Assembly (NCBI GenBank): GCA_028287235.1
Contig: JAQBQB010000010.1
Coordinates: forward strand, 62,001-126,000
Direction: 5' to 3'
DNA: 64,000 nucleotides
DNA from: Gemmatimonadota bacterium
Lineage (GTDB): Bacteria; Gemmatimonadota; Gemmatimonadetes; Gemmatimonadales; Gemmatimonadaceae
This document shows, one piece after another, positions 45,054-64,000 of the stretch. The position numbers were made by a program, and so were the translations under genes. A model generated the notes under the pieces. The model saw nothing but the letters and a program-made list of their open reading frames with translations, was not told where the DNA came from and made no database searches. Positions within the stretch are counted from its first letter, which is position 1. Every line of letters begins with the position of its first letter.

Positions 45054-46414
45054 GGCGCAGCCGTTCGTTCCCGACGTCCGTACTGCTCGCGATCGTCGCG
45101 CTCACGCGCACCGCTCCGGCGCAGACGGCGCTCGCCTTCGTCCACGTGAGCGTGATCGACGGCGGGAGCGAAGCGCCTCGCACCGATCAGACGGTCGTGG
45201 TCCGCGGCACCCGCATTCTCTTCGCGGGACCCGCGCGCTCGGCGAGCATTCCCGCCGGCGCGCGAGTCATCGACGGCCGTGGAAAATTTCTCATCCCCGG
45301 CCTTTGGGACATGCACGTGCACACGTCGATCATCGGCGGGCGCGCATTGCTTGGGCTGTACGTCGCCAACGGCGTCACCGGCGTACGCGACATGGCCGGT
45401 GATTGGGCCACGCTCACCGCGTGGCGTCGCGACATCGCGCGCGGGCGGCTCGACGGGCCGCGCATCGTCGCGTCGGGCCCGTACCTCGAAGGCGGCGACG
45501 TGTCGGTGCCGCACATTGTCACGCGCACACCGGCCGAAGGACGGGCCGCCGTGGACTCGCTCGTCAAGTTGGGCGTCGACTTCGTCAAGGTGCACGGGCA
45601 GCTCACCCCGGAGACGTACTTCGCCATCGCGCGACGCGCCCGCGAACGCCGCATTCCCTTCGCCGGACATGTGTCGCGCACGGTGGGTTCAGCCGCCGCC
45701 TCCGATTCGGGACAGCACAGCATCGAGCATCTCCTCGCGATACCCGCGCCGTGCACGCCGGCCGAGTCGATCGCGCTCGCGCCGCGGTATCCAGTGCAAG
45801 GGGCACTCGGCCGTTGCTCGTCGGAGGATCTCGGGTCGCTGTACGCGCGCTTCGTGCGCAACGACACGTGGGTCACGCCGACGTTCACCGCGCAGTACGA
45901 AGTGGCGGTGTGGCCCGGCCGCTCGGTGCCCGGCGACTCACTCGCGCACTATCTGCCGGACACGCTGCGCCGGTACGTCGCTGCGCTCTTCCCGATGCCC
46001 GACAGCATTCCCCCGGACGCCGACTCGGTGGGCCGCGCGATGTTCGCGAAGCGTCTCACGCAGGTCGCGACGATGCGGCGCGCGGGCGTGCACGTCCTCA
46101 CCGGCACCGATGCTCCGCTGCGCAACAGTCCGCCCGGCTTCGGCCTCCACGAGGAATTCGCGCTCCTCGCGCAGGGTGGCCTTACGCCCTTCGAGATCCT
46201 TCGCGCCGCCACGGCGGAGCCCGCACGCTATCTCGGCATGCTCGACTCGCTGGGCACCATCACGGCCGGCAAGCTCGCCGATCTCGTCCTGCTCGACGCC
46301 AATCCACTGGCCGACATTCGCAACACCCGGCGCATTGCGGCGGTGGTCGCGAATGGAAAGCTCTATGGCGCTGCGGAGCGGAAGCGGCTCCTACTCCGGC
46401 CGCGCGAGCAGTAA
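45050..46414 (+). CDS. Secreted metal-dependent amidohydrolase
   Basis: 454 residues from ATG 45050, overlapping the CHAT stop as ATGA, with GGAGG five bases upstream. Signal peptide ends APAQTA. The TIM-barrel metal site shows as GLWDMHVHT (HxH, about 85), DFVKVHGQLT where the bridging Lys stands, GHVSR, SIEHLL and TGTDAP (Asp about 360), the usual imidazolonepropionase/prolidase-like set. GKLADLVLLDANPL closes the small beta domain. It should hydrolyse an amide or a cyclic amide, such as an X-Pro dipeptide, in the periplasm. It ends the ECF sigma operon; its 3' end overlaps the convergent kinase gene by 24 bases. Substrate unknown. Confidence 0.92.
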   Translation: MRRSRSFPTSVLLAIVALTRTAPAQTALAFVHVSVIDGGSEAPRTDQTVVVRGTRILFAGPARSASIPAGARVIDGRGKFLIPGLWDMHVHTSIIGGRALLGLYVANGVTGVRDMAGDWATLTAWRRDIARGRLDGPRIVASGPYLEGGDVSVPHIVTRTPAEGRAAVDSLVKLGVDFVKVHGQLTPETYFAIARRARERRIPFAGHVSRTVGSAAASDSGQHSIEHLLAIPAPCTPAESIALAPRYPVQGALGRCSSEDLGSLYARFVRNDTWVTPTFTAQYEVAVWPGRSVPGDSLAHYLPDTLRRYVAALFPMPDSIPPDADSVGRAMFAKRLTQVATMRRAGVHVLTGTDAPLRNSPPGFGLHEEFALLAQGGLTPFEILRAATAEPARYLGMLDSLGTITAGKLADLVLLDANPLADIRNTRRIAAVVANGKLYGAAERKRLLLRPREQ

Positions 46415-46915
46415 CGCGTCGATCGCGTCGACGGCGCGCTGAAAGCGCTCGTCCCAATCGCCGGTGATCACCGCAACCGGACTTCCGTATGCGACGACGG
46501 CCGCGCGGAACATGCCCTGCACTTCTTCACGCATGTGGCCGCGATCGCGCACGTCGTCGGCGACCCAGGGCACGTCGATCTCGCAGAGCAGATAGAGATC
46601 GGGCCGGCGCAGCGCCGCCGCTTCGGCGATCCAAGCGGGACATCTCCCGAAATAGTGATCGCAGTAGACGACGGTGCTCAATAGATCCACGTCCTGCACG
46701 ACGAGCCGCGTGGCGCGCGCGATGTGCTCGTCTTCGAGCGCCATCTGGCCGCGCGCGATGGGGCCGTGATCGGCGAAATCGATCGGCGCGCGCTTTCGCG
46801 CGGCGTACTCGCGCACGAATTCCGGCACGAGCTCGCCGCCATAGTGCGCGGCCAACCGCGCGGCCAGCGTCGTCTTGCCCGTGGACTCGGAGCCGGTGAG
46901 CACGACGCGAATCAC
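46391..46915 (-). CDS. NadR-like P-loop kinase beside a PnuC-family transporter
   Basis: 174 residues from GTG 46915, which overlaps the transporter's stop (GTGA). Walker A is VLTGSESTGKTTLA (about 5-18), matching the ribosylnicotinamide-kinase domain of NadR; PEFVREYAARK, VVQDVDLLSTVVY and LYLLCEIDVPWVADDVRDRG are further NadR features. The nucleotidyltransferase and repressor domains of full NadR are missing. In NAD salvage such a kinase traps nicotinamide riboside. Here the operon starts with a TPP riboswitch, so the substrate may instead be thiamine; that would be a new specificity. The last 24 bases overlap the convergent amidohydrolase gene. Confidence 0.88.
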   Translation of the reverse strand: MIRVVLTGSESTGKTTLAARLAAHYGGELVPEFVREYAARKRAPIDFADHGPIARGQMALEDEHIARATRLVVQDVDLLSTVVYCDHYFGRCPAWIAEAAALRRPDLYLLCEIDVPWVADDVRDRGHMREEVQGMFRAAVVAYGSPVAVITGDWDERFQRAVDAIDALLLARPE

Positions 46916-47517
46916 GCCGTCGCCTCCGTGAGCGAGCGCTTCCATGCGACGTGTCCCATCACGGCGAGCGCGAGGTAGATGGCGTAGTTCGCCGCGGTGA
47001 GATACAACCCTTTGTAGATGAACATGCCGACGTACAACACGTCGACGCCGATCCACAACGCCCAGTTCTCGAGAATCTTGCGCGTCATCATGTACTGCGC
47101 GATGAGGCTCACGGTAGTCGTCGCCGCGTCGAAGTACGGCAGCGCGACGCCCGGCAGACGCGATGTGATCTGGCCGAGAATCGCCCACACGGCCACGCCG
47201 ATTGCGCCGAGCGTGATCCATAGGCGAGGCGAGGCGCGCGACACGCGCAGCGGCGTGTGACCCTTGCCGCCGTACAGCCACTCGTACCAGCCGTAGAGCG
47301 ACAACGCGAAATAGACGGCCTGGAGTCCCATGTCGGAGTACAGGCCCGAGCGGTAGAACAGCCAGAAGTAGAGCGCGACGTTCACGAGCGCCGTCGGCCA
47401 GCTCCAGATGTTCTGGCGCACGCTCAGGAAGACGCTGACGACGCCGAAGATCACGGCGAACAGCTCGAGACAGCTCGAGCCGTGCGCGGCGAGCCAGAGA
47501 CACAATGTGTTGGGCAT
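46912..47517 (-). CDS. PnuC-family vitamin transporter, probably PnuT-type thiamine importer
   Basis: 201 residues. Seven hydrophobic helices with PnuC signatures: RQNIWSWPTALVNVALYFWL, YGWYEWLYGGK (the family's YGWW-like motif) and LENWALWIGVDVLYVGMFIY. PnuC members carry nicotinamide riboside, riboflavin (PnuX) or thiamine (PnuT) by facilitated diffusion, made one-way by phosphorylation inside. A TPP riboswitch ends seven bases before the ATG at 47517 and contains the ribosome binding site, which makes thiamine the likely substrate. The overlapping NadR-like kinase downstream would supply the trapping step. Confidence 0.9.
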   Translation of the reverse strand: MPNTLCLWLAAHGSSCLELFAVIFGVVSVFLSVRQNIWSWPTALVNVALYFWLFYRSGLYSDMGLQAVYFALSLYGWYEWLYGGKGHTPLRVSRASPRLWITLGAIGVAVWAILGQITSRLPGVALPYFDAATTTVSLIAQYMMTRKILENWALWIGVDVLYVGMFIYKGLYLTAANYAIYLALAVMGHVAWKRSLTEATA

Positions 47518-47523
47518 TTGACT

Positions 47524-47601
47524 CCCTACGCCGGTACGAACCGGATCAGGTTCTACGGGACTCTCTCAGCCTGCGCCCTCAGCGGGCAGGCACCCCGGTC
47601 A
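47524..47601 (-). promoter_or_regulatory. TPP riboswitch (THI element)
   Basis: Read on the minus strand from 47601: TGACCGGGGTGCCTGCCC, then the P3 arm GCCTGC...GCAGGC, the conserved core GGCTGAGAGAG, then GAACCTGATCCGG with its GGTTCGTACC partner and the closing CGTAGGGAG. CTGAGA and ACCTGATC are the two universally conserved parts of the thiamine pyrophosphate aptamer. The final GGGAG is also the ribosome binding site for the transporter start at 47517, so control is probably translational: TPP binding hides it. TACATT (47614-47609) eight bases before the 5' end may be the -10 box. Only 21 bases separate it from the previous stop. Confidence 0.95.
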
Positions 47602-47622
47602 GTGTTGGAATGTAATCAGTGT

Positions 47623-63914: not shown

Positions 63915-63982
63915 GCCGTTGGGTAATTAGTGTTGCGCCCGCTTCCTGTTGCGTTCATCCAACACCCGCTAGCTTTCGCCGT

Positions 63983-64000
63983 TGACCGGGGTGCCTGCCC
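63983..64000 (+). promoter_or_regulatory. 5' end of a second TPP riboswitch, cut by window edge
   Basis: TGACCGGGGTGCCTGCCC at 63983-64000 is identical over all 18 bases to the 5' end of the complete TPP riboswitch at 47601-47584 (minus strand). TAGCTT at 63970-63975, seven bases before it, parallels the TACATT spaced identically before the first one and may be the -10 box. The conserved core lies beyond the window, so this is a partial call. It implies a thiamine-regulated gene to the right, divergent from kaiB. Confidence 0.75.

Follow-up and report, generated by a model that had tools for sequence, protein, structure and literature searches.

A TPP riboswitch in front of a PnuC-NadR-type gene pair

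What is the substrate of a PnuC-family transporter and a NadR-type kinase, a pair usually named as nicotinamide riboside (NR) salvage, when the genes that encode them stand behind a TPP riboswitch? The question is raised by a locus in the window, by which we mean the whole 64,000-nucleotide stretch of DNA that was analysed. Reasoning from sequence, we propose, with a probability of roughly 0.85, that the riboswitch-controlled pair serves the uptake and trapping of thiamine in a predicted thiamine auxotroph, in which the kinase would produce thiamine monophosphate (ThMP) and ThiL would convert this into TPP. The riboswitch, the pnuC-family gene and the kinase gene all lie on the minus strand, and the relevant features are as follows:

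47506..47607, minus strand: TPP riboswitch aptamer, its 3' strand including the pnuT Shine-Dalgarno (RF00059; sequence read directly)
46912..47517, minus strand: PnuC-family transporter, predicted thiamine transporter PnuT, 201 aa (PF04973, TIGR01528, 4qtn)
46391..46915, minus strand: NadR-type P-loop kinase, predicted thiamine kinase, 174 aa (PF13521, AF2 model, context)
63977..64000, plus strand: start of a second TPP riboswitch, the rest of which runs to 64078, past the window (RF00059, 74.6 bits)

Scanning the window against Rfam with cmscan gave a single match, the TPP aptamer RF00059 at 47607-47506 of the minus strand, which is found at full length (model positions 1-105 of 105) with 71.2 bits (E 5.2e-12; gathering score 54.3 bits). 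Toward its 3' end the aptamer reads GUAGGGAGUCAA and continues into the ATG of the pnuC-family gene at 47517, and the Shine-Dalgarno of this gene is located inside that same part, four bases 5' of the ATG (...CGUAGGGAGUCAAAUG). The original prediction of a complete aptamer that reaches the ribosome binding site of a PnuC-family gene is thereby borne out. Binding of TPP to the aptamer should hide the Shine-Dalgarno of pnuT and switch its translation off. The peptidase-like gene upstream has its stop 15 nt before the aptamer, which makes a translational switch within a longer transcript plausible.

The kinase starts with a GTG (46915) that shares a 4-nt overlap, GTGA, with the stop of the pnuC-family gene, and a GGAGG lies 7 nt 5' of this start; judging from this layout, the kinase is translationally coupled to pnuT. 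That a PnuC-family gene overlaps a NadR-type kinase gene was thus correctly foreseen, and both assignments are backed by profile matches (PF04973 and PF13521). The layout described earlier also holds, to which we add the minus strand and the GTG start of the kinase, as well as the second TPP riboswitch at the right end, which had gone unmentioned. The 3' ends of the kinase gene and of an amidohydrolase-like gene that converges on it overlap by 24 nt (46391-46414).

Exactly two TPP riboswitches (RF00059) are present in the whole genome of 5.73 Mb. The second one, at C23:125977-126078 (window 63977-64078), extends past the right end of the window; the gene behind it encodes a TonB-dependent receptor (L003:8073-10184; PF00593/PF07715), which we predict to be an outer-membrane thiamine receptor. 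Because the genome has only these two riboswitches, and the same grouping of genes recurs across phyla, a chance grouping can be excluded.

Thiamine pathway of the source organism

Profile searches of the genome, which is Gemmatimonadota-like, revealed ThiL (235 bits, cut-off 184) and no ThiC, no ThiE/TenI and no TPK domain (ThiN/Tnr3), the latter with positive control genomes; for ThiK the one hit was a 22-bit fragment, where the cut-off is 299. Of the thiN, thiL and tnr genes for which a search elsewhere in the genome had been suggested as a check of the original prediction, thiL was found and a TPK was not. With ThiL present and ThiC, ThiE, TPK and ThiK missing, the conversion of thiamine into TPP needs either an unrecognised thiamine kinase that feeds ThiL, or import of ThMP. 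We predict the source organism to be a thiamine auxotroph.

The proposed mechanism would then run as follows. When TPP is low, the aptamer would open and leave the ribosome binding site of pnuT free, so that PnuT and the kinase are made. Thiamine would pass the outer membrane through the TonB receptor under the other TPP riboswitch and diffuse through the inner membrane by way of PnuT, upon which the NadR-type kinase would trap it by phosphorylation to ThMP. Addition of a second phosphate by ThiL would yield TPP and close the switch. Trapping would be needed because PnuT is reported to be a facilitated-diffusion carrier, as stated in the title of a 2018 paper (cited in PMC7749635 and PMC7221760).

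The transporter and the kinase

The transporter matches PF04973 over the entire profile (193 bits, positions 1-175 of 175), scores above the cut-off of TIGR01528, which carries the NCBIfam name of NR transporter PnuC, and is matched to the PnuC structure 4qtn (E 4e-9). It is the only PnuC of the genome, and it is linked to a TPP riboswitch and thiamine genes both in the window and at the loci of relatives, the context by which a PnuT is recognised; we therefore name it as the predicted thiamine carrier PnuT. In its last Trp-rich helix, the pocket motif reads WxxWxxxD, as it does in most TPP-linked carriers, against WxxWxxxN in the PnuC of E. coli and N. mucosa. This N-to-D change is suggestive, not diagnostic, as the D form is also found in the NadR-linked carrier of Aureispira, and the N form in one TPP-linked carrier.

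The kinase is the only NadR-type kinase of the genome. It matches PF13521 (AAA_28) with 121 bits and, of the NadR models, only the kinase part, reaching 88.9 bits on TIGR01526 where the cut-off is 341; neither an NMN adenylyltransferase (NMNAT) domain nor a DNA-binding domain was found on it. Likewise, it has no match to the ThiK model TIGR02721 or to the TPK domain PF04263. In VIA-align its AF2 model (pLDDT 95.7) gave a Z of 23.1 to 8X7F, with an rmsd of 1.9 over 173 residues, and a Z of 20.8 to 1LW7, and by sequence and structure alike its closest solved relatives are the kinase domains of NadR. With these domains (1LW7, 8X7F, 6GYE) it has the P-loop fold, Walker A, E33/R36, D76, W118 and R124 in common (residues are numbered as in P0001; subtract one for the position in the 174-aa protein). 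Unlike NadR, however, it stands alone, and it carries S81, Y85, H88-Y89, D125 and F137 where the NadR of E. coli and H. influenzae has T81, F85, K/Q-Y at 88-89, S125 and L137; the NR-kinase active-site residues T81, F85 and S125 are thus not present in the window kinase. The near-invariant DTD motif is DVD in this protein (residue 77).

In a tree of 116 kinases, the thiamine-linked ones, Hymenobacter excepted, form one clade of 87 with a support of 99/95, apart from NadR. The exact combination of E33, R36, D76, D78, S81, Y85, H88, Y89, Y109, D125 and F137 occurs in 71 rows. S81, Y85 and D125 are all found in the window kinase, and most of the clade has them too, unchanged or with a few substitutions. 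Another set, V81, W85 and E125, is mostly common to the stand-alone kinases of riboswitch-less Bacteroidota loci and the NMNAT-kinase fusion of Aureispira (L186). Position 81 aligns with Thr311, and D76 with Asp306, of H. influenzae NadR, for which a docking study lists Thr311 among the pocket residues and proposes Asp306 as catalytic base (PMC13256911). The thiamine-linked kinases look like a specificity class of their own.

Relatives within Gemmatimonadota

The kinase was found in 82 of the 298 genomes sampled from this phylum, and in the 83 kinase loci that were read, the PnuC-kinase pair is almost always kept. Many of them have, next to the pair, a TonB receptor homologous to the TPP-riboswitched one, either divergent (e.g. 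L013, L024, L030), convergent (L093, L094, L098, L037, L074), or within a single operon in the order riboswitch, TonB receptor, PnuC, kinase (L103, L106). In many relatives the pair itself has no adjacent riboswitch. When the riboswitch lies elsewhere, it still precedes a TonB homologue in 23 of the 29 riboswitch loci that were fetched, where the pair is unlinked, and 22 of these 23 are in genomes that bear the kinase. At three loci (L082, L083, L057), a TPP-riboswitched TonB receptor adjoins the kinase, and no PnuC was found in the locus.

Presence of the kinase tracks the loss of ThiC and ThiE. Both ThiC and ThiE/TenI are absent from 44 of 59 kinase-bearing genomes, versus 2 of 21 kinase-less ones (Fisher p 2e-7, uncorrected for kinship); G135, which carries only a 32% identical paralogue, was counted as kinase-less in this test. 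In agreement with this, a published study reports a much lower prevalence of thiamine synthesis in Gemmatimonadales (PMC10469786). ThiL was matched in all 80 Gemmatimonadota-group genomes, and TPK in none of the 80. Since relatives without the kinase also have no TPK, the lack of TPK is by itself no distinguishing mark inside the phylum.

An apparent counterexample is G145, which has a TPP-riboswitched TonB receptor and a divergent PnuC, but no kinase (L227). ThiE is present in this genome, and genes for TenA and ThiM are located around a second TPP riboswitch (L229). It may be that this bacterium rebuilds thiamine from cleaved precursors, and needs no thiamine kinase.

Relatives beyond the phylum

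When 84,980 species genomes were scanned, the best 80 of at least 548 relatives were taken, and 42 of these 80 loci showed the TPP pattern, including 8 of Hymenobacter that we did not count. Hymenobacter was dropped as TPP-linked because the kinase is followed by the riboswitch and receptor only after about 2-4 kb, in some loci beyond other genes, and furthermore because its kinase has the V81/W85/E125 signature. In this genus (L177:5887-7434, plus strand, and others), the NadR-type kinase is fused to a C-terminal aldose-1-epimerase-like domain and adjoins PnuC.

The operon of riboswitch, TonB receptor, PnuC and kinase is Rfam-confirmed in at least 12 loci, mostly of Acidobacteriota (L135, L138, L140, L142, L144, L146, which is labelled Methylococcaceae, L149, L154, L156, L158, L163 and L176), and L155 shows it by pattern only. 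In the gammaproteobacterial loci that were read (L165, L182) there is no PnuC, and the kinase is located directly before a TPP riboswitch. This riboswitch is followed by ThiB in both (373-375 bits against a cut-off of 317), and in L182 ThiP comes next (422 bits against 395), components of a thiamine ABC transporter that is unrelated to PnuT; three other gammaproteobacterial loci (L170, L189, L195) have the same kinase-riboswitch layout by the position of the riboswitch. That the kinase stays with thiamine transport even when the transporter is swapped is, in our view, the strongest single argument for thiamine as its substrate. All 44 further carriers beyond the phylum that were tested have no TPK and do have a ThiL match, 42 of them over the cut-off.

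Six Bacteroidota loci (L168, L169, L171, L173, L174, L194) have a PnuC and a NadR-type kinase with V81/W85/E125, and no riboswitch; these are probable NR salvage pairs. Three loci of Desulfovibrionaceae (L151, L153, L166), also without riboswitch, combine a PnuC with a kinase of near-thiamine-type signature that has N78, and in L153 and L166 the pair sits amid repeated tRNA genes.

Taken together, we consider it likely that this branch of the NadR family, with its S81-Y85-H88-Y89-D125-F137 signature, is a widespread thiamine kinase, which would replace ThiK and TPK in bacteria that are thiamine auxotrophs or depend on salvage among the Gemmatimonadota, the Acidobacteriota and some of the gammaproteobacteria, with either PnuT or ThiB-ThiP as its partner.

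Alternative explanations

Could the pair nevertheless be an ordinary NR salvage pair of PnuC and a NadR-type NR kinase, with a TPP riboswitch that is there fortuitously? The nearest solved structures are NadR kinase domains from a parent family of NR kinases, the transporter scores above the cut-off for NR transporter PnuC, and the wider family includes true NMNAT-kinase fusions that adjoin PnuC, as in the Aureispira locus. However, it would then have to be explained why TPP riboswitches, TonB receptors and ThiB-ThiP are recurrently linked to this kinase in several phyla, and why it tracks thiamine auxotrophy. Moreover, the window kinase has no NMNAT domain, and its S81/Y85/D125 differs both from the T/F/S of NadR and from the V/W/E of the NMNAT fusion, which makes NR salvage very unlikely. 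Alternatively, PnuT might import HMP or hydroxyethylthiazole, and the kinase might act on this thiamine precursor. TPP riboswitches do control precursor salvage genes as well, and in a kinase-less relative TenA and ThiM genes are located near a second TPP riboswitch. Yet the window genome and 43 other kinase-bearing genomes have neither ThiE nor ThiC, so that phosphorylated precursors would be useless to them, there being no ThiE to couple these and no ThiC. We consider a precursor kinase extremely unlikely. Of the three substrates originally put forward for the kinase, thiamine is thus the one favoured by pathway gaps, recurring neighbours and pocket signature, as a predicted activity, and HMP and the thiazole are disfavoured because ThiE is absent.

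With thiamine as the preferred substrate, the product has still to be considered. The kinase occupies the place of tnr3 in the OMthi-pnuT-tnr3 cassette (PMC5613172), which would suit an enzyme of the Tnr3/ThiN kind, a thiamine pyrophosphokinase with TPP as its immediate product. This is highly improbable in light of the retention of ThiL in all 80 Gemmatimonadota-group genomes and its match in all 44 carriers of the other loci, and of a fold that is of the monophosphate-forming nucleoside kinase type. Strict auxotrophs among them keep ThiL while having no other known source of ThMP, which favours a monophosphate product. Lastly, PnuT might import ThMP for ThiL to finish, leaving some other role to the kinase, or another phosphotransferase might be the thiamine kinase. 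Low-scoring phosphotransferases of the ThiK (APH) superfamily do exist in these genomes, and given their presence such an enzyme is conceivable. The conserved partner in operons with PnuT, the TonB receptor and ThiB-ThiP is, however, the NadR-type kinase and none of those proteins, and the vitamins that the PnuC family is known to carry are unphosphorylated; we give this explanation only a very slim chance.

Relation to known systems, and implications

The proposed system, in which the kinase acts as a thiamine kinase, resembles the OMthi-pnuT-tnr3 operon of Bacteroidetes in its TPP riboswitches, TonB receptor, PnuT and (predicted) thiamine-phosphorylating enzyme. That operon is sometimes split, with the riboswitch duplicated (PMC5613172), much like the window genome with its two riboswitches and its receptor apart from the pair. 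In contrast, a NadR-type P-loop kinase stands in for TPK, and the second phosphate has to come from ThiL; with receptor and predicted PnuT present and TPK absent from the genome, the system falls outside OMthi-pnuT-tnr3 proper. The likeness of the transporter to PnuT of Shewanella woodyi and Bacteroides, which share the PnuC family, the TPP riboswitch and an adjoining trapping enzyme, is one of family and context. As for E. coli ThiK, the predicted reaction is the same, from thiamine to ThMP upstream of ThiL, while the enzymes differ: ThiK is an aminoglycoside-phosphotransferase-type enzyme, and the window enzyme a P-loop kinase of the NadR type. The element that appears to be new is this NadR-type kinase in place of TPK; in a literature search that covered mostly open-access papers, no report of a NadR-like thiamine kinase was found.

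Under standard reconstruction these bacteria seem unable to use thiamine, and their ThiL is without a known feeding enzyme. If our reading is true, this gap would be closed across many genomes from groups that are abundant in soil and freshwater, and the pair's customary annotation as nicotinamide riboside salvage would be corrected. The signature provides a short list of residues for testing. Furthermore, the pair would present a clean case of a transporter and a kinase that changed substrate together, from vitamin B3 to vitamin B1.
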